A stretch of DNA of 64,000 bases from contig PMSM01000011.1 in assembly GCA_003168335.1 (NCBI GenBank), positions 1-64,000 of the forward strand. The letters run 5' to 3'. The notes below the pieces were generated by a model. That model did not search any database. It saw only the letters and a list, made by a program, of their open reading frames with translations, and was not told the origin of the DNA. Shown piece by piece: positions 23,969 to 42,026 of this stretch. The position numbers and the translations under genes were made by a program. The first letter of the stretch is position 1. Each line of letters opens with the position of its first letter. This stretch comes from Blastocatellia bacterium (GTDB lineage Bacteria; Acidobacteriota; Blastocatellia; Pyrinomonadales; Pyrinomonadaceae).

Positions 23969-25105
23969 TTACCTTCGGCCGAAGAGCAAGGCTCCAACCT
24001 TTTCTGCGGCGTCTTTGCGCATTGAAGGCAGCACGTGTTGATAAGTGTCCATGGTGAAAGCTACGCTGGAGTGGCCAGCGGCTCTGCTTACGCTTTTTAG
24101 GTCGGCGCCCGAGAGAATGGATAACGTCACGAACGAGTGTCGTAGGCGATAAAGATTTATTGGTCCGTCGATTTTTGCCCGTTCCATGATTGGTTTGAGG
24201 TGTCTCAAGACTAGATCTCGAAAGCTGAGTGGCGTTCCGATCTTTGTGGCGAAGACGAAATTGTTGTTTTGGTACTTGTTGCCGAGACGCAGGCGGATTT
24301 CGGCTTGTGAAGTCTTGTGCGCTTTCAGGGCGCGCGCAACGGTCGTGTTGAAGTTAATCGTTCTGAGGCTTGATTGGGTTTTTACCTCTTCAATTTTCCA
24401 GCCGCCCCCTTTTGGCCACCAGATCGATTGGTGGATGGTGACTTCGCGTTTATGGAGGTCGAGTTCAGGCCATTGAAGGCCGAGATATTCTTCCGGCCGC
24501 GCACCAGTTGCGAGCGCAAACCAAAATACGATGCCGAGGCTATCGGTTCTGGCGGCTTTCATAAATCGTTCGGCTTCCTCGGGGCTGAATACGTCAATGG
24601 GTTTCTTTTTCCTGGGCGGTCGCCGGGTGGAGTGTGTAGGATTGAATTCTATTAGGCGACTTAATACTGCTTGATTTAGAGCGTCTTGAATTAGACTGTG
24701 CGCGAATGAAACCGTTCTGGGAGATAGTCCCGCTTCTGATAGTTCGTTATAGACGCTTTGGATTCGTAGGACAGTTAGTTCAGATAGCTTGTCCTTCCCG
24801 AGGTACGGGCGGACATACTGCTTGAGTACGTATTCGTATCCTGCGTAGGTTCGTTCTTTTACGGTCTTCTTCTTGAATGCGACCAGCCAGTCGTTGAGAT
24901 AATCCCCGAACGTTGGATCCTGGATCTTTGGTTTGTCGAGTGTGCCGAGGTCGCGCTTGGTTTCAATCTCACGCGCATACTTCAGTGCGTCTTTCTTTTT
25001 CCCGTTTATGAGTTTACTGTGACGTTTTCGTTTGCCGTTGTCGTTGCGGAGTACGGATATTCTCACCAACCATTTGTCGGTTCCGCGCGGGATGATTTCA
25101 GCCAT
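23969..25105 (-). CDS. Tyrosine recombinase/integrase
   Basis: This 378-residue phage/ICE-type integrase has an N-terminal arm-binding domain (residues 1-60, MAEIIPRGTDKWLVRISVLR), a core-binding SAM-like domain (about 63-165) and a catalytic domain. Catalytic residues are visible: R203 in ATGARPEEYLGLQW, R322 in LYRLRHSF (the usual His of HxxR is Tyr319), H345 in AAGHSS and Y355 in TMDTYQHVLP. It catalyses site-specific integration and excision, probably at the tRNA-like site near 23.6 kb. An excisionase-like gene lies directly upstream in the same orientation. It shares its N-terminal domain with the chimera at 8259-8993. Confidence 0.93.
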   Translation of the reverse strand: MAEIIPRGTDKWLVRISVLRNDNGKRKRHSKLINGKKKDALKYAREIETKRDLGTLDKPKIQDPTFGDYLNDWLVAFKKKTVKERTYAGYEYVLKQYVRPYLGKDKLSELTVLRIQSVYNELSEAGLSPRTVSFAHSLIQDALNQAVLSRLIEFNPTHSTRRPPRKKKPIDVFSPEEAERFMKAARTDSLGIVFWFALATGARPEEYLGLQWPELDLHKREVTIHQSIWWPKGGGWKIEEVKTQSSLRTINFNTTVARALKAHKTSQAEIRLRLGNKYQNNNFVFATKIGTPLSFRDLVLRHLKPIMERAKIDGPINLYRLRHSFVTLSILSGADLKSVSRAAGHSSVAFTMDTYQHVLPSMRKDAAEKVGALLFGRR

Positions 25106-26863: not shown

Positions 26864-28603
26864 TCAGTGTTCACTTAGGAGGCCTTTCATCGATTGCAGA
26901 AGTTGTTGGTCGGAATTCCCCTCCGCAAGATTCGCTTTCAACATACTGAGCATTTTCACCAGCTTGTCATTCGATATGTTGCCATTGCCGTTCCCGGAAG
27001 GTGGATCGTCCTTGAGTGTTCTTGAGAGCCAAGCCTTAGCGCGTTTTTCGCAGTCCTCATCAAGCAACATGGCATAACTCTTCAAGACAGTTTCGACCGT
27101 ATCACCAAGCATGTAGGCCGCGTCGATGAAGTTTCTTGTTGCTTTAATGTATTCGGTCGCCCAGATTGTCCTGATCATGTGGGGATTCATGGCTACACCA
27201 GTAAACTTATAGGTCGCGCTCTCGAACGCCCAGGTCACTTGCTCCGACGTCAACGGATCTCCCACAGAGTTAACAAAAACAAATTCTTGGCCTGACTCGG
27301 CACGTTCACTACCCTGACGACCATGTTTCCGGAACGAAATGAGAACAGGCCTCCATTGTGAAAGCCACTCTTCCAACAAATCCACGATCTCATCGGGAAA
27401 CTCATGTTCCACTCGATGCACTTCTCCTTTAACATGCGATATTTTCAACTCACTCCCAACAAACCTTATGCGCCATTTGCCTTCTCTCTTATATAGATTT
27501 TGCCCTTGTTCCGGTATCTCTGGATTCCAAAGCATTTCTCTGAGGTTTCTCTGACGGAGCGGTAGTCTGATGGTTAACCTTACAAGGATAGACTGTAAGA
27601 CCCTATAAGCATACCTCTGATGTTTTTTGAAACCATCTTTCTTATCTCGTCGAAGCCTCCGGCGAGTGTTGGATGCCAGATCCGAAAGTCGCTGAGCATT
27701 AAGTGGATAGATTGACAGCCCCACACTTTCGAGCTTTCGCAGACTGATCCATCGCTTGCTTTTATCCGCCACTTTCACCGGCTTCCCCATAGTTGTTCTA
27801 TGCCTCCTCAACTCATCAACCCTCAGCTCCAAAGCTTTGCGCTGCTCGGTTGACTGCTCGACTATGCTTAAATACTTTCCCAGAACAATTAGCCGCGCAA
27901 TGTTCTCCGCCGCAGTGGCAGTAAATCTTCCTTGCTGCTCTATGGACCAATCGATAAAGTTGATCGCATTCTCGGGTTCTGTAAGGGTTGATAGACTTAT
28001 TGATTCGGGCTGCAGCCCGCTGTACTTCACTAAATAGCCCGCAGCCCGAAGTATTGTTCCTCGGTGATTAGCGAAGCTGACCGGGCGTTTTCTCAGATTA
28101 TCAGGACGGTCGCGATTTACGATCCTAGTGCTCCACGTTTCGTAATTAGTGATTTCTTGTGCTAGCGAGTGAGGTACAGGGTCAAGAATATACTTGCTTG
28201 ACTTTACGGACTCACACCGAAAGATTAGCCTTGACGGAATCTTGTTACAGTCTTTGGAACTCGGGAGCGGTCCTGGCACCTGACCAATTACTTCTCGGTC
28301 TATGGCGCTTCTAATTATGTAGCTCACATTATTCTTGAGATTGCGGATAGCGTGAGGGCCCAAACGCGAAGCGGCGAATTTCCCGCGCCTTGAACCTTGC
28401 GCCCTTTCTTCGACTAGGCGGTTTCTTGTTTCGGCTGGTAGATGGTAAGCGGTCATGGGACACAGGGCGGGATCACTGTATCCAAGGATAATCGCGTATT
28501 GCTTAAGCGCTGTTTTGATGGGGCCTAAGCGAGAGTGAGGGATGACTTGTCGTTCAATCAAAGCGTCCAGAACTTCCTGTAGTGTTTTGTCAGAGGTATG
28601 CAT
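26864..28603 (-). CDS. Large divergent tyrosine-recombinase-like protein
   Basis: This 579-residue protein has a long helical N-terminal part (about 1-330) and a C-terminal domain with a degenerate tyrosine-recombinase core: Arg in LPLRQRNLREMLW, H475/R478 in NPHMIRTIWATEY, then an LGDTVETVLKSYAM helix with a candidate nucleophile Tyr510. The His/Trp box position reads Gly-Asp. Similar large proteins occur in integrative elements, sometimes as sets of recombinases acting together. The excisionase-like gene at 28806 is 200 bases upstream on the same strand. Activity is likely but not assured because box II is weak. Confidence 0.75.
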   Translation of the reverse strand: MHTSDKTLQEVLDALIERQVIPHSRLGPIKTALKQYAIILGYSDPALCPMTAYHLPAETRNRLVEERAQGSRRGKFAASRLGPHAIRNLKNNVSYIIRSAIDREVIGQVPGPLPSSKDCNKIPSRLIFRCESVKSSKYILDPVPHSLAQEITNYETWSTRIVNRDRPDNLRKRPVSFANHRGTILRAAGYLVKYSGLQPESISLSTLTEPENAINFIDWSIEQQGRFTATAAENIARLIVLGKYLSIVEQSTEQRKALELRVDELRRHRTTMGKPVKVADKSKRWISLRKLESVGLSIYPLNAQRLSDLASNTRRRLRRDKKDGFKKHQRYAYRVLQSILVRLTIRLPLRQRNLREMLWNPEIPEQGQNLYKREGKWRIRFVGSELKISHVKGEVHRVEHEFPDEIVDLLEEWLSQWRPVLISFRKHGRQGSERAESGQEFVFVNSVGDPLTSEQVTWAFESATYKFTGVAMNPHMIRTIWATEYIKATRNFIDAAYMLGDTVETVLKSYAMLLDEDCEKRAKAWLSRTLKDDPPSGNGNGNISNDKLVKMLSMLKANLAEGNSDQQLLQSMKGLLSEH

Positions 28604-28805
28604 TGCTTTGTCCTATGCGCACTGGAATCTCCCTGGAAAATGCAAATTAGTACCGTTCACCGCTTTTTTCTTAGTAAAGACCATGGTGAAAACTACTAAA
28701 TCCGATAACCTTTAAGTGAACCAATGAGGAGCCTTAGAGCACTAGTGGGACAAACGAAGACATTAGGGACTACTAATCAATACTAAGCCTCGTGTTATCA
28801 ACGAC

Positions 28806-29045
28806 TTAGCTTCGGGGCAGTCCTCCAACCTTTTTAGGCACTCTTATTAGCGAAGTGCGCACAAATTCCTGGACGTCTTCACGCCTAAATCTGTAGCTAC
28901 GACCCCAGCGTACGGCTCTTAATCTACCGCTTGAGATCAATCGATAAACCGTCTTTCGGCTACAACGGAGGATTTGTGCGACTTGGCTCAGCGCGTAAAG
29001 ATCTTCGATCACGGCTATACCTGGGTTGTTCTCGGTTCGTTGCAT
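28806..29045 (-). CDS. Excisionase-family HTH protein
   Basis: This 79-residue protein is a compact HTH_17/excisionase-type domain: LYALSQVAQILRCSRKTVYRL, then ISSGRLRAVRWGRSYRFRRE and DVQEFVRTSL. It would bind att or operator DNA as a directionality factor or as regulator of the large recombinase downstream. The 28604-28805 gap between them has no clear terminator. The coding frame runs to TAG at 28806. Confidence 0.87.
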   Translation of the reverse strand: MQRTENNPGIAVIEDLYALSQVAQILRCSRKTVYRLISSGRLRAVRWGRSYRFRREDVQEFVRTSLIRVPKKVGGLPRS

Positions 29046-30033
29046 ATGTCGTCCTATTCGGTTTTTGGCATTCTCTTTAAAGATCCGATTGAACTTCGCT
29101 CCTTGTGGTTTCGGCTCGCAGCAGCTGGGCGCCTGAGAGAAAGACGATCGTTAGGACTAGAAGTCCTATTACAGATTCGACCAGGCTCATACCGCGTTGG
29201 CGGTGAAAACGATCGAAGGGATTTGGGTAGCTAGATTTCATCGGCACTTTGTTCACCCTGAGAATTCTCCTAGCATGTTTGGGAGCGATCAGGGGAGGCG
29301 TTTATTCGAAACGCGGATGGTAGTTTGGCAAGCCGCGTTCCACGCCTTCAGACAGCCATTGCGTATATGCGTTTGCCGTTTAGAGCGTCGTCAATGACTT
29401 CTTTGACTGCTCGATAGTCGGCTGGGATGTCATTGCGATCACACGCGGCTAGGTGGCGAATGGTGCCTTAAGTAGCGATATTGTTGGGTGTTCAGGTGAG
29501 CTTGGAGTATCGCTTGGCTTCTTTTGGGCCCAGCCGTTTAATGCGCTCGTCAAGTGTTAACGATTCTTACATTGGGTCATATACCTTTCGTGAGTGTTCC
29601 TTTGTTCCTCGCCTGTTACTGTTGGGCGGTTTTTGAAAAAGAAGGGGCAGCTTGCTTTAAACGGCTTGACGGAAACAAGTAGGTGAGGGTCAGTCAGCCT
29701 AATACCAGCCACTGCGAACCGATGGCAACGCCACTACGAGAGGGACGCTTGGATAGCGATGCCGGGGTGTGGGCCGACGATTAGCAATGCGATTCCCGAG
29801 CAGTATCCGTTGCTTCGCACGATTCAAATGTCACATCCGGGATACTGTCGAGCAATCCTAGCGAGATCCTGACACCGCGTGGCCCGAATGCGATAGCGAT
29901 CGAAACTCCGTGCTTGTCTGGATCTTTGCAAATCGGCTAACAACTACTGTCCTACATATGTTGCATTTTCGTCATACTGGTAATACTCTCCCCGTGTTGT
30001 TTCTCGATTCTTGGCGGCCTCAAACTCACACTG
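29046..30033. other. About 1 kb without a credible gene
   Basis: Reading frames are short on both strands. Two small inverted repeats are visible: AGGACT-AGA-AGTCCT near 29153-29167 and GCGTTT-ATTCG-AAACGC near 29298-29314. The stretch separates the integration module from the defence genes and may contain a boundary, promoter or decayed genes. I see no tRNA or RNA gene that I can defend. Confidence 0.4.
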
Positions 30034-32358
30034 ATGACTGACAGCCTCTCGTCCAGTAACAAGCCTAAATTCTCCGGGCAGTTTTCCGATATACGAGCCG
30101 ACGCTAGTCTTTATTCTCACGAAGATGCGGCATCCCTATACGTGGCTCATCCAGAAGGTCTACCGGGCCTTGAACGAAACTCTCTTATCGTGGGCCCAAT
30201 CGGCTCCGGTAAGACGATTATGCTCAAGACCCTTTACGCGCAGTGGCTTTCGTCGAAGAGCCTAAGACCTATCTACGTTGACGTCCTTCGGTGGACGTCA
30301 CAAGTGGCTGGGGAGACTGAAACCTATGATTCGGAGAGGTTGTCACCCCGGGGCCGAATAATTCTCGATGCAATGTCCTTAGCAATAATCTTGGGAATCT
30401 GTGAAAGCTCTGGAGTTTTCCAACAACCAAGTATTTACAAGAATCTTTGGCCTGTATTTGGGCCCAGCTTCAGTACCCAAGATCCTGATGGAATACGCGC
30501 ACTGGCCCAAAAGAGCATTCGCGAGGCGCTAATTGCTGGGAAGGACTTGCCTTCTTATCTCCCTTCAGTATTTGCTGTGGCGACCACACTAGGCTCATGT
30601 GTCCGCAGCGAGCAGAACAAGACCTTAGTATTGCTGGTTGATCAAATTGATCAGGTTTCCTCTTTGTTCTTTGAGCCGATTGCAAGCTTGTTGCGTCGTT
30701 CAAGCGAGTATGTATCAGTGCTGGCCACCAGACCCTGCGCAACTGCTCCTGAACCAGAGCTATTCCCATCAGACGTCACCTCTGGCGATTCGTATCGAAC
30801 CATCCAGCTAGGCAGGAGTATTGAAGGAAGAATCCCGCATTCCTTCGTTCTTAATTTTATTAAGGCACTTCCCCTCGAGCCTCCATTCAAATCTGAAATC
30901 GAAGAGCGAGCGGAGTTGATCGCAAATGTAATGTGGCCATCTCTGAGGTTTGCGGTAAGTACTATCCATGAGTTCGTACGACTTAGAGTCTCAGGAAAAA
31001 CCGCGGATCAGGCTTGGCACCAATCAGTCAAGGAAATAGCACGTAACTACGAGGATCTAGTCCAAGATGGGCTCAGAGCCTGGTGTAGTAATCCTAAAAC
31101 AATGCTTAAAGATTGGAGGCGTAGAGTAATAAACAAAAGAGGCGGAAGTCCTGCGCCAATTGGACGAGCAAATTTGCAATTTCAAAGGCGCAGTCTATTC
31201 GGCGACATTGGGGGTAAAGCTGCTCAGCACCTGATTCGTGTTGCCTTAAAAAAGGGTGTTCTGTTGATGGGACCAGAAGAGCACTATGTTCCCGGTGTAA
31301 TTCCGACAGTCTGCGAGATCGCACCGCTGTTACTGGTCAACGATCCAGATGTGGACTTGGCGACCTTCGAACCACGAGTAGTTACAATAGATATTTCACA
31401 CGAGACTCTCGAGAGATGGAGCAAGAGCTTTGGCGGCATAACCAAGCGCACTTCGAAACGTATATTTGTTAGTTACTGGATGAGCGATCCGCAGGGATTT
31501 GGCGAAAGCCCTTTGGCGCAAATTGTTAGGGCGAGATTTGGCAATTCCGTTGATGTCGTAACAGGTGCTCTGACTGGCTCGCCTCGATGGTCACCCGAAA
31601 TCATAGAGAAAATCTCTAAGGTTGATCTTGTTCTTTGCGACTTATCAGTGGCTCGAAGGGACATATTTTTCGAGTACGGGGTCGCCATAGGCAAACATAT
31701 ACCAGTAATACAATGCGTTTCCACCTCACTGCAAGAAGCTGAATTTCCTTCTTGGGTGGCAAACCGACAAAATCAATATTTTTCTTTGGATGAAGCTGGC
31801 AATGAACGCTTCGCAACCTCCGTTTCAGCGGTGTTAGAAAACGTTCCGGATCCAAAGAGCGTCTGGAAACGCGACTCGCTCGGCCACAATCTTGAAGCCC
31901 AGTCTGACATAAGGACGGTTCTAGTATTAGGACCGGTTCAGTTTCAGGGCACGGTTGATAAGATTACTGCCCTCGCGCGTGAACGGGGATTCACTTCTCG
32001 TTTCGAGCAAGTTATTAGTACGGTAGATAATTTGGAGAGTTGCATAAGGTTGGTTAGATCCGCAGGTACTCTTATCTTGGCATTTGATGCCACAGCCAAC
32101 GACTATCTGACTTGTGTCGCGGGCGGATTATTTACGACAAAAAAAACCGGATACGTCGGAGGTCGCTCTAGATATGATTTGGAATTCCTTACTATAGATC
32201 TTTCTTCCAACCCATCCGGTTCTGCGATGCCGGCTTTATTGGCCTCGCATCCTAAAAGGGTCTATTGCAGCGATAGTAACGACCTGGTTGAAAGGCTCGC
32301 GGTGCGCCTTGGGCACTTACAGTCTGTCATAACGAAAGCGAGTGTCGTAAAGAAATGA
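30034..32358 (+). CDS. P-loop ATPase fused to TIR-like and Rossmann-like domains (putative defence protein)
   Basis: This 774-residue cytoplasmic protein has an N-terminal AAA/STAND-like NTPase: Walker A GPIGSGKT at 54-61, Walker B LVLLVDQID ending about residue 206, and a sensor-like VLATRP. Helical and winged-helix-like parts follow to about 460. Residues 474-600 (KRIFVSYWMSDP, then VDLVLCDLSVARRDIFFEYG, AIGKHIPVI) form a TIR-like or deoxyribosyltransferase-like Rossmann domain with a candidate catalytic E547. The last 145 residues (IRTVLVLGPVQFQG and AGTLILAFDA) look like another small Rossmann domain. Its stop overlaps the next start (ATGA). ATPase plus TIR architecture is typical of antiphage NAD-depleting proteins; this combination and its partner are not ones I recognise. 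Confidence 0.75.
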   Translation: MTDSLSSSNKPKFSGQFSDIRADASLYSHEDAASLYVAHPEGLPGLERNSLIVGPIGSGKTIMLKTLYAQWLSSKSLRPIYVDVLRWTSQVAGETETYDSERLSPRGRIILDAMSLAIILGICESSGVFQQPSIYKNLWPVFGPSFSTQDPDGIRALAQKSIREALIAGKDLPSYLPSVFAVATTLGSCVRSEQNKTLVLLVDQIDQVSSLFFEPIASLLRRSSEYVSVLATRPCATAPEPELFPSDVTSGDSYRTIQLGRSIEGRIPHSFVLNFIKALPLEPPFKSEIEERAELIANVMWPSLRFAVSTIHEFVRLRVSGKTADQAWHQSVKEIARNYEDLVQDGLRAWCSNPKTMLKDWRRRVINKRGGSPAPIGRANLQFQRRSLFGDIGGKAAQHLIRVALKKGVLLMGPEEHYVPGVIPTVCEIAPLLLVNDPDVDLATFEPRVVTIDISHETLERWSKSFGGITKRTSKRIFVSYWMSDPQGFGESPLAQIVRARFGNSVDVVTGALTGSPRWSPEIIEKISKVDLVLCDLSVARRDIFFEYGVAIGKHIPVIQCVSTSLQEAEFPSWVANRQNQYFSLDEAGNERFATSVSAVLENVPDPKSVWKRDSLGHNLEAQSDIRTVLVLGPVQFQGTVDKITALARERGFTSRFEQVISTVDNLESCIRLVRSAGTLILAFDATANDYLTCVAGGLFTTKKTGYVGGRSRYDLEFLTIDLSSNPSGSAMPALLASHPKRVYCSDSNDLVERLAVRLGHLQSVITKASVVKK

Positions 32359-33347
32359 TGTTCCACGATTCGCCATTGCGACTAATGGATCCCGGAAAGC
32401 CAATAGTATGGATTGGAGCAGTAAGCTTTGAAGCCCGCTGCGTTGGAGCTGTGAGACAACTTATTGACAAAGGATATCGCATTGATCGAGCTGTTGCTTT
32501 TGACTATCCCACAACTCTTCTGCCGAGGGCAGATGGAGAGCTTAATCGGGAATTCAACAGAAGAGAGCTACGTGGCCTGATCGGTGATGCTTTAGAACTA
32601 CGGGTCATCCACCCTTATCGTTATGCAGAGTTTGTGGGAGAGCTTTTTAGAATATGGAATGAGGTATCTTCAGAAGGAGAATCGCCGACACTTGTCGTGG
32701 ACATTACTTGTCTGACTAAGATTCACACTATTGCCTTGGCTTACTGGTTCTATTCGACGCAGGGTCGAGTTGTCTTGGCATATTCTCAACCTGATCTTTA
32801 CGGAAATCCTTCAAGAAATACTTGGGGGCATGGGAAATGGACAAGCACGCTATTGGTGAGATTAAGTCTGGATTCAACGGAACCTTATTCCTCGACAAGC
32901 GCTATCGCAATCCTTGGACATGAGGGTGATCGTTTGCGTCTGGCGCTTAACGAGGCTGAGGCAAACGAGGGATTAGTAGTAAAAATAATACCGCAAGATC
33001 CGGCATCCAGATTGCTCCAAGTATCAAACATTCAAAACGCCTGGCTCTTCGTAGAAATTGAAAATGGTATCCGGCAGAACTTTAGCTTATTGTCAGTGAA
33101 CTCGCGCGCGTTGGACGCACTTGAAGAGTCTGTCAGTTCACTTGCTCGTGTCGCCAAAGAGAAGAACTCCCGAGTGGTCCTGTGCCCTTTTGGCCCCAAG
33201 CCTGTAGCTTTCAATGTTGCTCATATGTGCCTTACCATCTATCCAGAGAATACTTGGTTGTCATATCCAATACCCCAATCCTACGATCCTGAATACTCTT
33301 CCGGTTACAAGTACACGCTTTGGATTGATCCAGCTGAGCAGTCGTAA
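32355..33347 (+). CDS. Rossmann/CARF-like partner of the ATPase-TIR protein
   Basis: This 330-residue soluble protein is translationally coupled to the previous gene by a 4-base ATGA overlap. It opens with a strand-turn IVWIGAVSFEARCVGAVRQL and has TLVVDITCLTKIHTIALAYW at about 112-131. The D-I-T-x-x-T-K pattern between a strand and a helix resembles the NxTGGTK nucleotide-binding loop of CARF domains, but the match is partial. A second alpha/beta part covers 190-330 (TSAIAILGHEGDRLRLAL and RVVLCPFGPKPVAFNVAHMC). No nuclease motif is seen. I infer a sensor or regulator of the ATPase-TIR protein. I cannot assign a family. Confidence 0.6.
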   Translation: MMFHDSPLRLMDPGKPIVWIGAVSFEARCVGAVRQLIDKGYRIDRAVAFDYPTTLLPRADGELNREFNRRELRGLIGDALELRVIHPYRYAEFVGELFRIWNEVSSEGESPTLVVDITCLTKIHTIALAYWFYSTQGRVVLAYSQPDLYGNPSRNTWGHGKWTSTLLVRLSLDSTEPYSSTSAIAILGHEGDRLRLALNEAEANEGLVVKIIPQDPASRLLQVSNIQNAWLFVEIENGIRQNFSLLSVNSRALDALEESVSSLARVAKEKNSRVVLCPFGPKPVAFNVAHMCLTIYPENTWLSYPIPQSYDPEYSSGYKYTLWIDPAEQS

Positions 33348-33426: not shown

Positions 33427-33454
33427 AAAACCCCTATGCCTTCGAGGCAGAGGG
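33427..33454 (-). terminator. Terminator at the end of the restriction operon
   Basis: On the minus strand CCCTCTGCCT pairs with AGGCATAGGG (one mismatch) around CGA, followed by GTTTTC. It overlaps the last codons of the 33434-34915 gene and lies in the gap between convergent operons. Confidence 0.6.
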
Positions 33455-34915
33455 CTTGTTGTCACTTCGCGCATCGATCAGCACGATGTTCTTCTCTTCC
33501 GAAAGCTTGAGTTCTTCCAATATCTTGAGCACCCTCTCTTTTTGTTCTTGGCTGAAATAGAGAATTACCTTTATGGCATGTTTTGCGTCGGACGCCTTCT
33601 GATAGATTTCGACTTGTTTTTCAAGATTGGCTTTGAGATGAGAGTTATTCGCCAGTTTGAATTCAACAAGGGTGCTATCACGACTGCCTTTTGAAATCTT
33701 GAAGTCTACTGGCCCCCTCCCATTATTCACTTCTCTGTTTACATCTGAGTACGACGCAAACCACGTTAGCCGAAATAGGATTTGTAGGTCAGCTTCGCGC
33801 TGTACAGGCTCACCTTTAACATAGAAGATGCGATACCCATCCTTGTTCTCGATCACATCTTTCAAAAACATGACTCTCGCCCACGCCTCGTCGTAGGTAT
33901 CGCCAAGCAGATCGTAGAACCCCGTATCCTGCGACAACAGCTGAAGCAGTTCTTTGAGTTGCTTCACGTATAGGAGATCCGACTGAAAGACTTTCAAAGC
34001 ACTTATGTCTTGAGCTTCACTCCCATGATCTTCCTTGAACTTAATGAAGTAATCGATAAGCTCTGGATACTCCCGAATCGTTCTTCTGACGGCCTCTCGG
34101 CGTTCCTTTGCCGTAAACTTCTCCGGAAGTAGTTTCTTGAAATAGTTATTTATCTGGGCTCGCAACTCATCATTCGCGATTGCGTAGGGAATCTCCTCAA
34201 AACCGTCGATAAGGTCCGAACGGTTGATCCATGTATCCTCCTTAGTGAGCATGTCTTTTGGAGTAAGCAACACATAATCACCTTCGAACCATGGAAGGTC
34301 ATAAGCCTGGCTTTCCCAGGTCTCAGTAACGTAGTTAAAGCGCACTCTCCGTACCGTGACTCGCCTCCGCAGCGTTGGATGGATATGTTCTTTGGCAAAG
34401 GCTTGGGTGTAGTCGAGCAGGCATTCTTGGATGAGATTTGTGGTGAAGTCGCTAATATGATCCTTGCCGACTCCATCGCTAAACAGACAAAGTTTCTCCA
34501 GGTGACTTCCCTTAGTCACCTGTTCAGATCCGAAGTTAGTGAAAACTCTGTGAAGGTTCTCGTGCAGGGCTTTAGCGAAGTCCGAACCCAGGCCGCTGCC
34601 TCGGTTGCTTTTTCGCGCGAAGCCCAACCAATTTTGTTTCACCTCGGGAAATCGGTACCAGGCTTGAACAAGACCGCGTTCCACCCCGCCTTGTGCTGAC
34701 TTGTCCCGCAAAAATTCCAGATACCGGATCATTCGACCATGTAAATCTCGATACTCGCGCTTCGTACTGTTAAAGAGTAGAAATGGATCGATAAAAAGCG
34801 GCAAGTCGTTCAGGAGCGAGATATTGAATGCCCCATAGTTTTCGACAGTCTCTGGGAGTACACCGAAGTAATCAGAAAAGTGTGTCTTGATGTGGCGAGG
34901 ATTGCTATTTCTCAT
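33434..34915 (-). CDS. PD-(D/E)XK nuclease-like protein appended to the type I restriction operon
   Basis: This 493-residue soluble protein begins MRNSNPRHIKTHFSDYFGVL and is largely helical. Near the C-terminus it carries a PD-(D/E)XK core: D404 in GRGPVDFKISKG, then E418 and K420 in TLVEFKLANN, followed by a helix (LKANLEKQVEIYQKAS) and strand (AIKVILYFS). It starts 4 bases after hsdS on the same strand, so it is part of the hsdRMS operon. It could be a second effector acting on DNA or RNA when restriction fails, or an accessory of the complex; I know no characterised homologue. A terminator overlaps its stop. Confidence 0.7.
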   Translation of the reverse strand: MRNSNPRHIKTHFSDYFGVLPETVENYGAFNISLLNDLPLFIDPFLLFNSTKREYRDLHGRMIRYLEFLRDKSAQGGVERGLVQAWYRFPEVKQNWLGFARKSNRGSGLGSDFAKALHENLHRVFTNFGSEQVTKGSHLEKLCLFSDGVGKDHISDFTTNLIQECLLDYTQAFAKEHIHPTLRRRVTVRRVRFNYVTETWESQAYDLPWFEGDYVLLTPKDMLTKEDTWINRSDLIDGFEEIPYAIANDELRAQINNYFKKLLPEKFTAKERREAVRRTIREYPELIDYFIKFKEDHGSEAQDISALKVFQSDLLYVKQLKELLQLLSQDTGFYDLLGDTYDEAWARVMFLKDVIENKDGYRIFYVKGEPVQREADLQILFRLTWFASYSDVNREVNNGRGPVDFKISKGSRDSTLVEFKLANNSHLKANLEKQVEIYQKASDAKHAIKVILYFSQEQKERVLKILEELKLSEEKNIVLIDARSDNKPSASKA

Positions 34916-34919
34916 AAGC

Positions 34920-36308
34920 TCAAAGCCTACGTTTTGTTTGATGCCTTCGTCTGTTTACCGACTCAGATTTCTCGTTGCCTAGTCCGCGATCCTTCCTAAT
35001 TCGTTCCAACAAGATCGAGGCGGGTTCGTCGGTGGGGTCTTGGGGGACGAGTTCGCCGCGGAAGGCTTTGGCGAGAATTGATTGCGTGAGCTTGTCAACG
35101 TGCGCCTTCGCTTTGCGGTAACGGGCTTCGAGTACGTCGCCGGTTTTGAAGAGTGCTTCGACGCGGTGAACGATTTCTTGTTGCTCAGATAGTGAAGGCA
35201 GTTCGATTGGGGCTTTACGAATGCCGTCCGCGCCAATATTGCCTTGATTCACATTACCCGTCTCACCTTCAAAAAAGAAATCTCTAAAAATGTCAGTTTG
35301 AAACCAATAAAGCATAAACAGCGGTAAGACTTTCTTCTTGCACCGTAAGCGAGATACGCGTTGATTCAGAAATAATTTGTGGTCGGTTCTAGTAACGATT
35401 GCGGCGTTTCCATAATCCTTTTTGTATTTTGTTCCGGTCATTGAAATAACAATGTCATCAGGCACAAGCTGAAAGCGCTCAGTCGCTTTTCCGATTTCAT
35501 CTGGAATGAAAACTGGTGATGCGTCTAATTTGAGCGAAAAAGGGCGCACGTTCCCGATACGAATTACTTGGTTAGCACCAGACTTTGTGAAGGTTGGGCT
35601 TCTATATGCAAAGCCTCCTACATAATCAGCAACATCCCCGATTATTGCTGGCTCATACTCTTGACCAATTCCATTCTTCTCACGCCAATCGGCGGTCAAC
35701 TTACCCGAACATGCCGCGGCAAGAACGGATTGCCGAAACCGTTTGAGAATGTGCGGGATGGTTGCAAGTCGCGCTTGCGCGGCGTCCACGCGGCTCAACA
35801 ACTTCTCCAGCTTCGCTACAATGCGGCGTTGTTCGTTGAGGGGCGCAAGCAGAATGGAAATCTCTTTCAGAGCACCCAGATAGACACCCCTTTGAGCTGT
35901 GCCGCTCGCCAGACTTTCAAGTGTCCCCTGAAACTGCGGTGCGCGAAAGAGCAATGAGAGATACTCAGTATTAGTTAGGCTAGGATCTGGTCGTGCGATC
36001 GCAACGCTTCGCTGAACCGTAAACCGATCGGATGTGCGGTTGACGCATGAACGGCCGATCGAGCCGACGATTGTCAGAAGAACATCTCCTTCACTTACTG
36101 GGTTAGTGCGTTGAATAGCCAAATAGTTTTCTTCAGTGATGTATGAGTAGGCTTCCCTCCAATCGATGTGTCCGTTCTGTATATTTCTCGCGCTCAAGAG
36201 CGGAACACCTTGGGGGGTTCGCTCTGGGGGCGTGTGAGTACCGTCACGAAGCGATTGGAGTAAGCTAGTTAAGGGAGCGAGGATCCATCCTTGAGGTAAT
36301 TCACTCAT
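34920..36308 (-). CDS. hsdS: Type I restriction-modification specificity subunit
   Basis: This 462-residue S subunit has two target-recognition domains each followed by a conserved helical spacer. TRD1 covers about 1-170 (LPQGWILAPLTSLLQSLRDG, LLSARNIQNGHI) with the spacer PLNEQRRIVAKLEKLLSRVD. TRD2 covers about 210-400 (YVGGFAYRSPTFTKSGANQV) with LPSLSEQQEIVHRVEALFKT. The C-terminal ILAKAFRGELVPQDPTDEPA is the usual tail. It defines the bipartite DNA target of the complex and bridges two HsdM. The start overlaps the hsdM stop by 4 bases. The target sequence cannot be predicted from sequence alone. Confidence 0.95.
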   Translation of the reverse strand: MSELPQGWILAPLTSLLQSLRDGTHTPPERTPQGVPLLSARNIQNGHIDWREAYSYITEENYLAIQRTNPVSEGDVLLTIVGSIGRSCVNRTSDRFTVQRSVAIARPDPSLTNTEYLSLLFRAPQFQGTLESLASGTAQRGVYLGALKEISILLAPLNEQRRIVAKLEKLLSRVDAAQARLATIPHILKRFRQSVLAAACSGKLTADWREKNGIGQEYEPAIIGDVADYVGGFAYRSPTFTKSGANQVIRIGNVRPFSLKLDASPVFIPDEIGKATERFQLVPDDIVISMTGTKYKKDYGNAAIVTRTDHKLFLNQRVSRLRCKKKVLPLFMLYWFQTDIFRDFFFEGETGNVNQGNIGADGIRKAPIELPSLSEQQEIVHRVEALFKTGDVLEARYRKAKAHVDKLTQSILAKAFRGELVPQDPTDEPASILLERIRKDRGLGNEKSESVNRRRHQTKRRL

Positions 36309-37720
36309 GCCGCGATTGTTTCCTCTTTCTCAATCAACGCCACGATCTCTTTCAAATCATCGACAACCGCTTCGAGCTCTGTGATCGCTTCGGCGGCCAG
36401 GTCATGCGGTTCGGGCAGCTCATCGCTGTCTTCGAGCGATTCATCCTTAAGCCAGGTGATGTCGAGTTTGTAATCGCGCGTCTTGATCTCGCTTATGGAA
36501 AATTTGCGGAAGCGACCTTCCTCGCCCAAGTCCTTTCGCTTACTCTTGCCGTTGGGATCAGCGCCGTAGCACTTTTCAAACTCGGCGAAGTGCGCGGGAG
36601 TCAGTGGCCGGTCTTTCTTGGTGATGCCGGGCACGTTGGAACGCGCGTCGAAAATCCACGTGCTCTCGGTCGGGTAGCCTTTTTGGAAGAAGATAACGTT
36701 CGCCTTGACGCCCTGGCTGTACGGCGTGAAGGTGCCGCGCGGCAGGCGCAAGACCGTATGTACATTGCAGTCCTGCATCAGTATCTCGAACACCTCACCC
36801 GCTTTGCTTTCGAACAAGCAATTGTCAGGAAGCACGACGGCGGCGCGGCCGCCGGGTTTCAGGATCGTCAGGATGTGCTGCAAGAAGTTCAATTGTTTGT
36901 TCGAGGTCTCAATGGTGAAGTCTTCGCGATCAGGAGCTTGATTCGCTCCTCTGGTGCCGAATGGTGGATTCGTTAAGATCACATCAAAGCGTCGGCTGCT
37001 TGGCACCTGGTAGATTGCGTCACCCAAAACAATCTCAGGTTCGAGACCGTGAAGATAGAGGTTCATTGACGCCAGGCGTCGAGGTCGCTCAACTAGATCC
37101 TGCCCGTAGTAAGTTGCTCGCTTCACTCGTTTCGCAACATCGCGTTCCAGCGCTCCCTTTGTCTGCTGGATCAGCCATTCGTAGGCTGCAACGAGAAAAC
37201 CGCCCGTGCCGCAAGCTGGATCACCGATCGTGAACTGTTTATGGGCGCGCGGGTCGGGCTTCATGCAACGAACGATTGATTTGATCAGTACACGCGGCGT
37301 GAAGTACTGACCTGCGCCTTTCTTACCCTCACTGGCAGCTTTCTCAAGCAGTCCTTCGAATGCTTCCGCCTTCACATCGACATCAAGGTCAGTCCACTGA
37401 GTATCATTGACGAGCGTGAGCATCCTCTTAAGATTTACCGGATTGTTGAAGCGCGATTGTGCGCCCGCAAAGATGTCGCCAAGCAAGCCGGGCTGTTTCC
37501 CCAGTGTTCGCAGAACATCGACGTAGTGATCCGTCAGATCGGTTCCGGTCTGCTTGTAGAGCGTTGGCCAGTCACACTTCTTCGGCAGCTCAATCCCACG
37601 CTCATCCGCCATCTTAAGAAACAGAAGATAGGTAATCTGCTCGATGTAGTCGCCGTAGTCGATTCCGTCGTGCCGAAGTGTGTGGCAGAAACCCCACAGT
37701 TTTTGAACAATATCGCTCAT
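36305..37720 (-). CDS. hsdM: Type I restriction-modification DNA methyltransferase subunit
   Basis: This 471-residue adenine N6-methyltransferase has an N-terminal helical domain (GDYIEQITYLLFLKMADERG), the SAM-binding motif DPACGTGGF at 167-175 and the catalytic NPPF at 251-254. AGQYFTPRVLIKSIV is the typical lead-in. The C-terminal coiled helix (AEAITELEAVVDDLKEIVAL) would contact HsdS. It protects host DNA and forms the core of the restriction complex. It overlaps hsdR upstream and hsdS downstream by 4 bases each, giving strict translational coupling. Confidence 0.96.
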   Translation of the reverse strand: MSDIVQKLWGFCHTLRHDGIDYGDYIEQITYLLFLKMADERGIELPKKCDWPTLYKQTGTDLTDHYVDVLRTLGKQPGLLGDIFAGAQSRFNNPVNLKRMLTLVNDTQWTDLDVDVKAEAFEGLLEKAASEGKKGAGQYFTPRVLIKSIVRCMKPDPRAHKQFTIGDPACGTGGFLVAAYEWLIQQTKGALERDVAKRVKRATYYGQDLVERPRRLASMNLYLHGLEPEIVLGDAIYQVPSSRRFDVILTNPPFGTRGANQAPDREDFTIETSNKQLNFLQHILTILKPGGRAAVVLPDNCLFESKAGEVFEILMQDCNVHTVLRLPRGTFTPYSQGVKANVIFFQKGYPTESTWIFDARSNVPGITKKDRPLTPAHFAEFEKCYGADPNGKSKRKDLGEEGRFRKFSISEIKTRDYKLDITWLKDESLEDSDELPEPHDLAAEAITELEAVVDDLKEIVALIEKEETIAA

Positions 37721-40392
37721 GCCGCAATTGCCTCATTAAGGTCGTCAATAATGTCGTCGAGTTGGTTATTGAAGGTCTTGTTCGCTCGCCCCCAACCGCC
37801 GAAGCGGGTAAATACCGGCACGTTTTCAAAGTCATCACGGTCGATGGAAAGATTCTCGACTAAATGGTCGCGGATGCGATTCAGCCATTTCTGTTGCTCG
37901 TCGGAGAACTGTTTGCCGGCAGTGACGGTTTCAAATGCGCGATGAACTCGCTCCGAAGCTGTGTAAAGCGGCTCCTGCTCGCGCGCCGCATGCTTGACCA
38001 TAGAAATGATGTCTACCAGAGCTTTGTCGTAACTTACTTTGTGGGCCTTCTGAAGATTATCAACCGTGAAGCGCTCATTGGTAGCACTCAACTTTTGGCG
38101 CAGCTCCCCGAGTGCTTCGGTTCCCCAGCCTCGGGGACGCTCAAGCAGAATCTCAATCGCCTCGACCTGGGCGGGATTCTCGTTCACAAAGCGCGCGAAG
38201 GCCGCGAGGTAGTCTGCCGGTTTGTATTCCTGGCCGTCGAGGCCGCGCACTAACCATGCTGAACTCACTTCATCCTGAACTTCATAGCCAATAATGAATG
38301 TTCGCGGCGCGCGAGGGTAGTTTACGAGAAGACCTTGGAAGTTGGCATCACGGAGTAGCGCCATTGTCTCTGTGAATTTCCGTCGCAGATTGTTCGGCAG
38401 GTCTATCGCATAACGTCCCATATCACCATCTGGAATGTAAGCGGCAAACAGCTCGCGCGCGGCACCCGACATTTCCTTGTTGATGCGCTGGAGCCGACGA
38501 ACGAGACAGCGAATGTTGTAATCAAGATCTCGATTCTCCCAAATGTCATCAATGATCTGCTTAATCGTTCGAAGTTCTTTTTCGGGAGGTTCAGCCGTGA
38601 TAGCCGTAGCGCTCCGGAAATACTCCAGCAAGGTGCCGTCGAAGCAGTCAAAGACTGTGAAGTGTGACTTGTCCTGAAACTTTTCGCCTTTGCGAGTGCC
38701 GCGACCAAGCATCTGCTCAAACAGAATGCGCGACTTTACCGGACGAAGGAAGACGATGTATTCAAGATCGGGAATGTCTACGCCGGTTGTCAGCATGTCA
38801 ACGGAAACTACAACGTGCGGTTCAGGGCGATTCCGAAACTCGCGGATTCTCTGTAGCGGACGATCAACCCGGCCCGTGATCTTCTGGACGAACGAATCTC
38901 CCTGACCGAAAACGTCGCGACCAATATCGACAAGGTTATCGGCATGGGAAAAGTGTGGCAGGTCGTTAACTGCAAAGATTAAAGTCTTAGGGAAACGGCC
39001 ATACCGTTCCTGATGCTCAAGGGCGTAGCTCCTGATCTCTTCGAGGATCTTTTTGTTTGACTCGGGAGCCGTGACCTTTTGCTCGATCTCGCCAGTGTCG
39101 AATTGACGTTCGTCCTCAACTTGATCGAGTTGTTCTGCTCCGCTGGTTGGATCGATTATCCCTATCTGCTCGCCTTCGGTGAGAAAGACGCCTTTCATTC
39201 TCACGTCGGACTTGATTGTCACTACGTCGTAATCCACGAGAAAGCCTTCGCGAACTGCTCGCTCATACTCGTAGCGATAGACCACATCTTTGAAGTAAGC
39301 CTTGGTGTGCGCAGCCGGCGTGGCGGTCAGCCCAATCTTGATCGCGTCAAAGTGATCGAGCGTGTGGCGCCACACTGAAAGCTCTCCGGTGGAGTAACCG
39401 CGGTGGCATTCATCCGCGATGATTACATCAAAAGCATGAATCGGAATGTCGAGCTTCTCGGCATCTTCATCTATGGGTTCGTCGCCGATGTTGAAGACCG
39501 CATCTCGTCCGAACAAGTTGATCGTCATTCGCTGGATCGTACTGACGTAGACAAAAGCATCTCCTTGCTTGGGGTCGACGAGATACGACTGCGGCAGAGC
39601 TTTCGGATCAAACTTCTCGGTTTCGTCAAAATCCTCGCGCTGAAAACGCTGACTATAAACTTCGTAAATCTTGTCGAACTTCAGCCCGGGCTCCGGCTCA
39701 AACGAAGCAAAGGCGCGGACTGCTTGTGCTGCCAGCGCGCGCCGGTCTACCAGGAAAAGAATTCTCCGACCAACGCCTGATTTCATCAGGCGATAGACTT
39801 GATTCACCAGCGTAAAAGTTTTGCCCGTCCCGGTGGCCATCGCGACTAGCATTAGCCGCTTTCGATCCGCTACGGCTTTCTCAATGGCGTCATTAGCTTC
39901 GATCTGATACGGCCGGAGCCATGAATGATCATTCGCATGAGTTTCCAGCCAATTAGTAGCTACGTCGAGATCATGCTCCAACATTTCACTCAGGGCCGCC
40001 GGAGTGTGAAACTGGTTGACCTTTCGAGAGCGGCTTAGCTTGTGACGCACGTCATGAAACCAGATGACTTCGCCGTTGGTTGAGTAAAGGAAAGGCGCAC
40101 GATGGCCATCGTAGTTCAATAGACTGCTGGTGAGTCCACGCGAGTAGCGTTGAGCCTGAGTCAAAACATTCTGAGGACCGAGAGTTAGTTTTTTTGCTTC
40201 GATAACTCCAATGATGCGACCGTCGACACATAGCGCGTAATCGGCCGGCCCGTGTTCGGTGGGGAATTCCTCGATCGCGCACGTGCCGAGATCCGCAAGC
40301 GAGTGGCGTTCGTCGAAAGGGACAACTCGCCAGCCGAGGCTTTCAAGCTGGGGATCGATTCTTTTCTTGCGGGTCAGGCGTTCGGATTCCAT
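37717..40392 (-). CDS. hsdR: Type I restriction enzyme endonuclease/translocase subunit
   Basis: A protein of about 891 residues starts at ATG 40392 (MESERLTRKKRIDP), chosen because the 61 residues upstream are non-conserved and hydrophobic. The N-terminal nuclease has D51, E65 and K67 (PADYALCVDGRIIGVIEAKK). The SF2 helicase motor has Walker A ATGTGKT near 186-192, IIADECHRGYS, IGLTATPA and a C-terminal helicase part (VVSVDMLTTGVDIPDLEYIV, QMLGRGTRKG). It translocates and cuts unmodified DNA. It resembles the EcoEI-like branch. It is the first gene of the hsdR-hsdM-hsdS-nuclease operon. Confidence 0.95.
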   Translation of the reverse strand: MESERLTRKKRIDPQLESLGWRVVPFDERHSLADLGTCAIEEFPTEHGPADYALCVDGRIIGVIEAKKLTLGPQNVLTQAQRYSRGLTSSLLNYDGHRAPFLYSTNGEVIWFHDVRHKLSRSRKVNQFHTPAALSEMLEHDLDVATNWLETHANDHSWLRPYQIEANDAIEKAVADRKRLMLVAMATGTGKTFTLVNQVYRLMKSGVGRRILFLVDRRALAAQAVRAFASFEPEPGLKFDKIYEVYSQRFQREDFDETEKFDPKALPQSYLVDPKQGDAFVYVSTIQRMTINLFGRDAVFNIGDEPIDEDAEKLDIPIHAFDVIIADECHRGYSTGELSVWRHTLDHFDAIKIGLTATPAAHTKAYFKDVVYRYEYERAVREGFLVDYDVVTIKSDVRMKGVFLTEGEQIGIIDPTSGAEQLDQVEDERQFDTGEIEQKVTAPESNKKILEEIRSYALEHQERYGRFPKTLIFAVNDLPHFSHADNLVDIGRDVFGQGDSFVQKITGRVDRPLQRIREFRNRPEPHVVVSVDMLTTGVDIPDLEYIVFLRPVKSRILFEQMLGRGTRKGEKFQDKSHFTVFDCFDGTLLEYFRSATAITAEPPEKELRTIKQIIDDIWENRDLDYNIRCLVRRLQRINKEMSGAARELFAAYIPDGDMGRYAIDLPNNLRRKFTETMALLRDANFQGLLVNYPRAPRTFIIGYEVQDEVSSAWLVRGLDGQEYKPADYLAAFARFVNENPAQVEAIEILLERPRGWGTEALGELRQKLSATNERFTVDNLQKAHKVSYDKALVDIISMVKHAAREQEPLYTASERVHRAFETVTAGKQFSDEQQKWLNRIRDHLVENLSIDRDDFENVPVFTRFGGWGRANKTFNNQLDDIIDDLNEAIAA

Positions 40393-40556
40393 GGGACTGT
40401 CGACTGAGAGTTTAGCCGCTGGATGACTTAGTATCAATATCAACGGAATAGCCAAAGAAAAGAAGGGCCAAGGCTTACCATGTCCAGCAATCTCCAAGCA
40501 TAATCGGCGAAGAGGATCGAGTATCGAGACATGCCGACGAACAAACGGGAGTCGGT

Positions 40557-40715
40557 TTGGAACCGGGCAATCTTCCAACTGGCGTGATTGTCGGGACGGT
40601 TGAAGTTGTAGGTTGCCGCAAAGTACGTGGGGAATACGAATGGGACCTGGCGAGGCCGGTCAGACTAAAGCGTCCACTCAAACCAAAGAATCATCCTCAG
40701 CCGGCGTGGTTCTAG
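40557..40715 (+). pseudogene. C-terminal remnant of an ASCH-like protein
   Basis: An open plus-strand frame without start encodes LEPGNLPTGVIVGTVEVVGC, then EYEWDLARPVRLKRPLKPKN and ends at TAG 40713. The pattern LPxGxIVGTVEVVxC followed by a W-x-L-x-xPxR strand is that of ASCH/PUA-like nucleic-acid-binding domains. The N-terminal half is missing. It lies upstream of hsdR on the opposite strand. Confidence 0.4.
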
Positions 40716-40732: not shown

Positions 40733-41083
40733 TTACAAAGGCAGGGAACTGATTTGATTGGTCCATTCCCCAGCTTCGGAAGCGACCCAAATCAAGAGTA
40801 GCTCTTCCGCTGCTTGTGAGACCGGCAAGCGCTGGGAGACGATTAACAATCCGGGGCTTGTTTGCTGCGCAATGAACGCTGCGAAGTGATGCGGCATGGT
40901 CTGCCGATCATGCGAAACCAGAAGGCGTCCCTCGCTTGATGCCAACGCCAAGACTGTCGGATCGTCCAAACCCATCAGCCCGGCTTCCGGAGCTGTTTGA
41001 AAATCCACGAGCGGCTCCCGACGCTTAACCGCGGCGATGATGTGTCGATTCAAGTCTGCGTCAGCTTGAAACCGAACTCTCAT
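40733..41083 (-). CDS. DUF5615 PIN-like toxin
   Basis: This 116-residue protein has the DUF5615 pattern: [19 protein letters not shown] at the start, [22 protein letters not shown] in the middle, and a C-terminal helix. These are PIN-like RNase folds that pair with DUF433 antitoxins. The acidic residues D8, D10, the DD pair and D in SHDRQ make a plausible metal site. The start overlaps the stop of the DUF433 gene (ATGA-type overlap at 41080-41083), confirming a toxin-antitoxin operon. Confidence 0.85.
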
Positions 41084-41400
41084 GAATGCTCGACTTGCAT
41101 TTGCCGTCGGGCTTCTTCGAGCTTTTTGTAGAGCAGTGGATTTGCCTGCCGAGACTGTTGTCGCAGCTTCTCAAATTCAGCGTCGCCTCGTTCGAGGTAG
41201 GAGTCTATCTCAGCCTGGTGACCGAGATAGAAGGCGATGGCGCCATAGACTTGTTCGAGCGTCAAAGCGGGAAAACTGTCGGCAATCGTTTCGGCGGACT
41301 CCCCACGCCAGTAAGCGTAGACGACAGAGTCCAACGACACTCGCGTTCCCGCGACCCGATAAGCTCCGTTTTCAAGTTTGGTCACATAACCGTCCATCAT
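41080..41400 (-). CDS. DUF433 antitoxin
   Basis: A protein of about 106 residues starts at ATG 41400 or 41397 ([20 protein letters not shown]). The DUF433 winged-HTH pattern is clear: [20 protein letters not shown] followed by [20 protein letters not shown]. The C-terminal tail ([20 protein letters not shown]) would cover the toxin. It is the upstream partner of the DUF5615 gene and probably autoregulates the operon. An in-frame extension upstream to 41460 lacks conservation. Confidence 0.87.
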
Positions 41401-41618
41401 TGGTCTTGCTCCTGGTGCGTTTAGCCGGTTCATTGTACAGCCGTAGCTATTCGAATGCATAGAGCAATTCTAAGAAAGCAAACTTCCTCGCCTCTCAGCA
41501 TCTCACTGTGCTAAATCGAGCGGAAGCGGCGGGGCAGATTGAAAGGCCGTTCTTTGCTGACCCTGGTCTCGACCTGCTCGTGCAGCTTGGGCTGGTGCAC
41601 GAATGGTGCCTCGATTCT

Positions 41619-42026
41619 TCAAGCAATCGCGAACAACCGAGCGAAATCGGCTGGCCTCAGAATCTGAGTCGAGACCAAGGGTTGCTCGTCGAGTAAGTCT
41701 TTGTCGCCTGTGATTAGATAGTCCGCATCGCTGGCAAGACCTGCAGCAATGAAAATCTCGTCTTTCGGATCGCGGGGAAAAGTAGGATGAGTCGAGGGCT
41801 CAACGCGAATGGTGACTTCGTCAATGAACGCTCTCCAGGTTTGTTGGATCGCGTCTGGGACTTTGAACTTCGGACGTGCTAGAACTTCACGGTACTCAGT
41901 TTCAATCTCCGCGGTGACGATCCAGAACCAGTCGTCGCGGGATACGATCTCATCGATAATGCGCTGAGGCAGTCGGTCCCGAATCACAGCCGAGATGAGG
42001 ACATTCGTATCTACCAGAACGTTCAT
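41619..42026 (-). CDS. PIN-domain toxin (VapC-like, COG1569 type)
   Basis: This 135-residue RNase toxin has an N-terminal MNVLVDTNVLISAVIRDRLP with D6, a mid Glu in AEIETEYREVLARPKF, and the C-terminal acidic cluster DPKDEIFIAAGLASDADYLI plus TGDKDLL. All four acidic positions of an active PIN fold are present. It overlaps the antitoxin gene by 4 bases. The gap 41461-41618 has no other gene. Confidence 0.9.
   Translation of the reverse strand: MNVLVDTNVLISAVIRDRLPQRIIDEIVSRDDWFWIVTAEIETEYREVLARPKFKVPDAIQQTWRAFIDEVTIRVEPSTHPTFPRDPKDEIFIAAGLASDADYLITGDKDLLDEQPLVSTQILRPADFARLFAIA

Follow-up and report, generated by a model that had tools for sequence, protein, structure and literature searches.

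We analyzed a window of 64,000 nucleotides from the genome of a Blastocatellia bacterium (GenBank assembly GCA_003168335.1, contig PMSM01000011.1, positions 1 to 64,000), in which two coupled genes are found on the forward strand. Open reading frame 1 (ORF1; positions 30034 to 32358) encodes a protein of 774 amino acids with a P-loop ATPase in its N-terminal half, a TIR/nucleoside deoxyribosyltransferase (NDT)-like domain, and a C-terminal alpha/beta domain. ORF2 (32355 to 33347) encodes a tandem CARF protein of 330 amino acids, which was assigned to the CARF6 group by a PADLOC profile, has fold matches among CARF proteins, and is predicted to be a ligand sensor. The stop codon of ORF1 and the start codon of ORF2 share the sequence ATGA (32355 to 32358), and the limits of both genes and of their overlap are exactly those given in an initial annotation of this DNA. 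The 4-base overlap would favor stoichiometric production of the two proteins. The sequence at this point reads ATGATG; translation of ORF2 may instead begin at the second ATG, which would shorten the overlap to 1 base, the arrangement of its relative in genome G083.

Conservation of the gene pair

Full-length relatives of ORF1 were found at locus L019, in an Ignavibacteriae genome, and at L005 in G083. The L019 proteins are 47% (ORF1) and 46% (ORF2) identical to those of the window, and their genes are 12 bases apart. The G083 pair (L003/L005), identified by BLASTP (ORF1, 28% identity and E = 6e-23; ORF2, 33% identity and E = 3e-43), has a 1-base overlap and is located 92 bases downstream of tniQ genes in a Tn7-like element with fused tnsAB and tnsC; Dnd-like genes are near. 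An ORF2 gene adjoins every full-length ORF1 relative found, in three divergent genomes, and the initial annotation, which would have given up the pairing had the homologues not co-occurred, was borne out in this respect. Because both proteins are conserved where the pair recurs, chance does not account for its presence in the window.

When 396 genomes of the phylum were searched with a profile built from the three ORF1 relatives, matches over the full length were confined to G000 and G083, both of which also have ORF2. Locus L019 was found with a DNA pattern for YPIPxxYxxxYSxG and was the only one of the 17 pattern matches to encode a relative. No other ORF2 was detected among 162 genomes of the class to which the window belongs, and TIR-type pairs were found neither by tblastn searches of plasmids and phages with ORF1, ORF2, and their relatives nor in scans of viral contigs. 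A truncated CARF remnant is present in genome G212. This is a rare module, whose patchy occurrence suggests that it is transferred horizontally.

Domains of ORF1

The Walker A motif of ORF1 (GPIGSGKT, residues 54 to 61; 30193 to 30216) is kept in all three full-length relatives, and in the Walker B motif (LLVDQID, residues 200 to 206; 30631 to 30651) L200, L201, D203, and D206 are invariant among the three. The Walker A region is covered by weak matches to AAA_16 and to the ORC-CDC6-like family PF24389 (E = 1.9e-5), the latter with 24.0 bits, below the cut-off of 27 bits. The G083 relative scored 24.7 bits against PF24389, and the L019 relative had no match to it at E <= 0.01.

Residues 475 to 605 (31456 to 31848) form the predicted effector domain, and their membership in the TIR/NDT superfamily is well supported by profile searches. 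In the phylum search, short partial matches to the ORF1 profile were obtained in 24 further genomes, nearly all of them inside residues 439 to 647 (one covered the P-loop region only), and the matching proteins include Pfam TIR_2, PF05014-like, and Cap17-associated domains; the best superfamily match was the C-terminal domain of a Cap17-like protein. Alignment of the ORF1 domain to the retrieved set with hhalign gave a probability of 98.7%, a value that is partly circular, as the set was retrieved with the same profile; its TIR_2 member is recognized by Pfam independently. Matches of single proteins were weaker: the PADLOC TIR effector model matched ORF1 with E = 4.7e-4 and the G083 relative with E = 5.2e-6, and the best Pfam match of the latter was PF05014 (E = 3.2e-5, below the cut-off). 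The sequence does not separate TIR from NDT for this domain. Residues F478, E547, and G549 are invariant over nine aligned domains, comprising those of the three full-length ORF1 relatives and six other TIR/NDT domains. Glu547 (31672 to 31674), located in DIFFEYG, fits the Glu of the (F/Y)E(L/Y/A)G helix expected of the superfamily and is predicted to be catalytic.

The remaining C-terminal part of ORF1 (residues 622 to 774; 31897 to 32355) is an alpha/beta, Rossmann-like domain according to the AlphaFold secondary structure (predicted local distance difference test [pLDDT] values mostly 60 to 90) and is kept in the relatives. It did not match the TIR/NDT domain significantly and could not be assigned to any family; a comparison treating it as a second, degenerate TIR/NDT copy gave E = 0.47 and did not support that idea. 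The Walker A/B NTPase, the TIR-like or deoxyribosyltransferase-like domain, for which a profile search through this stretch returned both TIR_2 and NDT-like proteins, and the candidate catalytic Glu had all been recognized in the initial annotation. It had also proposed a further small Rossmann domain, of which the alpha/beta character is retained with fair confidence and a family placement is not.

ORF2 as a tandem CARF protein

ORF2 matched the PADLOC CARF6 model PDLC01923 nearly end to end (E = 3.2e-12; residues 19 to 317 against profile positions 23 to 294 of 299), and the CARF relatives of L019, G083, G326, and a Bradyrhizobium plasmid also match PADLOC CARF6 models. The AlphaFold model, based on four sequences (predicted TM-score, 0.79), contains two Rossmann-like halves of alternating beta strands and alpha helices. 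Its Foldseek matches include Csm6, Csa3, the ring nucleases Sso2081 and Sis0455, and Cam1, with E values from 2e-5; TM-scores were modest, since one half alone aligns well, and some unrelated proteins were also matched.

The first half comprises residues 17 to 148 (32403 to 32798), with strands (E) and helices (H) predicted in the order E17-23, H28-38, E43-50, H59-79, E80-84, H90-105, E112-116, H122-135, and E139-145. CARF domains are characterized by the signature [DN]x[ST]xxx[RK] directly after strand 4 (PMC4012209). In ORF2, D116-ITCLT-K122 (32700 to 32720) occupies this position after strand E112-116, with D116 invariant and K122 kept in six of seven sequences, and S24 provides the polar residue required after strand 1 (E17-23). 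The second half (residues 184 to 324; 32904 to 33326) is probably a degenerate repeat of the first. The two align in the same register, VDITCLTK...YSQPDLYGNP with LCPFGPK...YPIPQSYDPE, although the statistics of this internal hhalign comparison are weak (E = 0.05). The equivalent of the ligand loop in this half is P278-F-G-P-K282 (33186 to 33200), of which G280 and K282 are invariant in all seven relatives. Residues 152 to 189, where strand 6 is expected, were modeled with low confidence.

By profile and by modeled fold, ORF2 is a CARF protein predicted to bind a nucleotide, and it may act as an intramolecular CARF pseudo-dimer. The D-I-T-x-x-T-K loop that first drew attention to its CARF likeness thus lies where a CARF ligand loop should be, and the likeness itself holds, but for a tandem protein whose two Rossmann halves each have a ligand loop and not for a single domain. 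The absence of a TIR or CARF fold had been named beforehand as grounds against the whole reading; the ORF2 model is CARF-like by Foldseek, and the ORF1 domain falls into the TIR/NDT group by sequence profiles.

Kinase-type sister modules

At four loci, CARF6 proteins of more distant relationship are encoded beside kinase-ATPases or fused with them. In G326 (L006) a kinase-ATPase fusion is followed by CARF and ThyX genes, and on the Bradyrhizobium plasmid (L007) separate kinase, ATPase, and CARF genes, the last with an ATGA overlap, are likewise followed by ThyX. In G770 (L067) the kinase-ATPase gene overlaps the CARF gene by 4 bases, and in G589 (L068) kinase, ATPase, and CARF are all fused into one protein of 1,236 amino acids. 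A DNA methyltransferase gene precedes the kinase-ATPase in all four modules (PF01555 in L006 and L007; in L067 and L068 both kinase and methyltransferase were assigned by eye from the sequence), and the four loci are a recurrent methyltransferase-kinase-ATPase-CARF cassette.

Profile comparison of the TIR-type and kinase-type proteins gave E = 1.9e-14 for CARF, and hhalign gave E = 1.2e-5 for the ATPase around Walker B, a region that the kinase-type relatives, which pass the PF24389 cut-off with 86 to 89 bits, have in common with ORF1. Since the ATPase and CARF proteins are homologous and a kinase replaces the TIR/NDT domain, the core of the family consists of ATPase and CARF, with the effector exchanged.

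The ThyX thymidylate synthase genes 3' of the CARF genes (L006, 10677 to 11714; L007, 11148 to 12071) belong to modules from different phyla and may point to a connection with thymidine nucleotides or base modification.

Genomic setting in the window

The pair is located between a tyrosine integrase gene (26864 to 28603, reverse strand) and a type I restriction operon (34920 to 40578), the hsdR/M/S genes of which are on the strand opposite to the pair. The G+C content of its stretch is somewhat below that of the left flank, and no Rfam match was found at the setting of the pair. A PDC-M36A-like gene separates the pair from the operon (33434 to 34915, reverse strand); its 493-amino-acid product matches the PADLOC candidate PDC-M36A (E = 4e-23), and it lies 4 bases downstream of hsdS and looks like a fourth gene of the restriction operon.

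The gap of ~1.4 kb between integrase and ORF1 (28604 to 30033) contains no convincing gene, Rfam match, or clear promoter. Two different tyrosine integrases mark the left edge of the defense stretch (23969 to 25105 and 26864 to 28603, both reverse), and no tRNA was found within the window. On the other side, a DUF5615/DUF433 pair and a PIN_3 toxin-like gene are present at 40733 to 42026 (reverse). A SIR2_2 domain protein (47851 to 49053, forward), encoded beside an IS110 transposase (46636 to 47727), is a further candidate defense gene acting on nicotinamide adenine dinucleotide (NAD+).

Search for a ligand source

CARF proteins are best known as effectors or regulators of CRISPR (clustered regularly interspaced short palindromic repeats) systems, supplied by a dedicated cyclase. 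No Cas10-palm match was obtained in G000 or G511, and the matches in G083 and G326 are GGDEF proteins and not Cas10; the Cas10 gene that a type III CRISPR effector calls for in its genome was accordingly not found in the genomes tested. SMODS cyclases were not detected in any of these four genomes, some assemblies being incomplete and the search being confined to that cyclase family. With the same limit, no SMODS cyclase adjoins the pair, as a CD-NTase adjoins the effector in a cyclic oligonucleotide-based antiphage signaling system (CBASS).

A nucleotidyltransferase-like gene with two neighbors, one possibly membrane bound, was seen in G212 (L012, 3640 to 5910, reverse), near the truncated CARF remnant and an integrase gene; this locus may be a cyclase-type system.

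Proposed function and alternatives

The observed domain identities, the conserved pairing, the kinase-bearing sister module, the mobile and defense-island settings, and the failure to find members of the two cyclase families searched fit a mobile, CRISPR-independent, two-protein module for ligand-gated abortive defense, in which CARF gates the ATPase-TIR/NDT protein, and we consider this the probable function of the pair. We infer a physical complex, in which ORF2 without ligand would keep the partner ATPase in check. Its tandem CARF domains would sense a signal produced on infection, either a nucleotide or an RNA end; on ligand binding, the ORC/STAND-like ATPase of ORF1 would assemble and cluster the TIR/NDT domains, which could then cleave NAD+ or another nucleotide by means of Glu547, and the nucleotide loss would stop both cell and phage. 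The nature of the ligand and of the substrate, the direction of control, and the abortive outcome are all parts of this proposal. More tentatively, the pair could be an immune receptor independent of both CRISPR and CBASS, made up of an NLR-like ATPase-TIR protein and a separate tandem-CARF subunit that gates it in response to a ligand from no known defense cyclase, such as phage-derived RNA ends or a modified nucleotide; the family of this receptor would swap kinase for TIR/NDT effectors.

Several points weigh against this proposal. In the AlphaFold model of full-length ORF1, which is poor outside residues 470 to 774, the ATPase half has pLDDT values mostly below 50, so that motifs and weak profiles are the basis for its class. 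The fold search of ORF1 yielded no specific TIR or NDT structure. The searches revealed no source of the ligand, the four genomes being without SMODS cyclases and the Cas10-palm matches being GGDEF proteins. The counts are small, with three TIR-type loci, the only such members known, and four kinase-type loci. Finally, the TIR/NDT superfamily also holds nucleoside-processing members, and membership does not imply NADase activity. In a somewhat unlikely variant, CARF gates as proposed and the domain acts on nucleosides or nucleotides instead of NAD+, through depletion of deoxynucleoside triphosphates or ATP or through synthesis of a signaling nucleotide. PF05014 as the best Pfam match of the G083 relative and the Cap17-like protein as the best superfamily match speak for it, but clear TIR_2 proteins match the same profile and PADLOC groups the domain with TIR effectors.

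Other explanations concern the role of ORF2. ORF1 could be a constitutively toxic ATPase-TIR protein and ORF2 an antitoxin or inhibitor inactivated by phage, as might be expected from the tight overlap, the co-occurrence in every case found, and the toxin-antitoxin-like genes near. However, ORF2 retains both CARF ligand-loop motifs, which a pure protein inhibitor would not need, and the kinase-ATPase-CARF fusions are as expected of regulation inside a single machine; we regard this explanation as unlikely. That ORF2 instead switches the system off by degrading a cyclic oligonucleotide, as a ring nuclease or otherwise, with ORF1 itself sensing the signal, is highly improbable: Sso2081 and Sis0455 are among its fold matches and each CARF half has one Lys, but the Cas10-palm and SMODS searches of the four genomes revealed no source of cyclic oligoadenylate, and ORF1 has no recognizable ligand sensor, its C-terminal alpha/beta domain aside. 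It is also very doubtful that the pair serves the neighboring type I restriction system as an accessory regulator and is not a separate module. Although hsdR/M/S adjoins the pair and a DNA methyltransferase gene stands beside every sister kinase module, the pair and the hsd operon are on opposite strands, and no type I restriction genes accompany the L019 and G083 pairs in the sequence read, where both contigs end close by.

If ligand gating by CARF is correct, CARF sensors would also serve NLR-like receptors that detect infection directly, built on a core without a recognized cyclase and with interchangeable kinase or TIR/NDT effectors. The question of the CARF6 ligand would thereby become testable in a small two-gene system.

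Comparison with known systems

The pairing of the two proteins, unfamiliar at the time of the initial annotation, proved to be new in part. The architecture of a fused kinase-AAA-CARF protein was described in 2014 (PMC4012209), and with its CARF6 and kinase-ATPase relatives the pair is not isolated; the TIR/NDT variant is apparently new within the literature and sequence collections searched, as no published description of it was found in the literature covered, to which the 2020 CARF family census (NAR 2020, gkaa635) does not belong. The kinase-AAA-CARF systems (PADLOC PDLC01925, CARF6--CARF_STK_AAA; PMC4012209) have homologous CARF and ATPase parts, adjacent or fused, and the loci read contain no cas genes next to them. 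They differ in having an N-terminal kinase and an adjoining DNA methyltransferase; the window pair has no kinase, and its TIR/NDT domain is C-terminal. Kinase-class P-loops (GPRGCGKT or GARGCGKT) contain the arginine noted in 2014, and so does that of G083 (GSRGAGKT), whereas the window pair (GPIGSGKT) and L019 have Ile.

CARF sensing is also coupled to a TIR domain in Cat1 of type III CRISPR systems, which assembles into filaments once ligand is bound and breaks down NAD+ (PMC12162218). Cat1, however, is a single polypeptide using cyclic tetra-adenylate from Cas10, whereas the window has separate CARF and TIR/NDT proteins with an ATPase interposed and no Cas10 found. TIR-SAVED similarly joins a CARF-related sensor to a TIR effector, but in one protein, activated by cyclic triadenylate made by the CBASS cyclase (PMC9704534); in the window, an ATPase carries the TIR/NDT domain, and the search for SMODS cyclases was negative.

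The control logic has a precedent in RtcR, a CARF-AAA+-helix-turn-helix protein in which CARF controls oligomerization by restraining the AAA+ ATPase until an RNA ligand triggers it; the ligand consists of tRNA halves that have a 2',3'-cyclic phosphate end, and no cyclase is involved (PMC7790460). RtcR differs in that it acts as an activator of sigma-54 transcription, has only one, divergent CARF domain, and is without a TIR domain. The clustering of TIR domains by an ATPase is known from bacterial STAND/NLR-like TIR proteins, with which the pair is likely to share its logic. Those proteins sense through C-terminal repeats of the same chain, whereas the window system would use a separate CARF protein.

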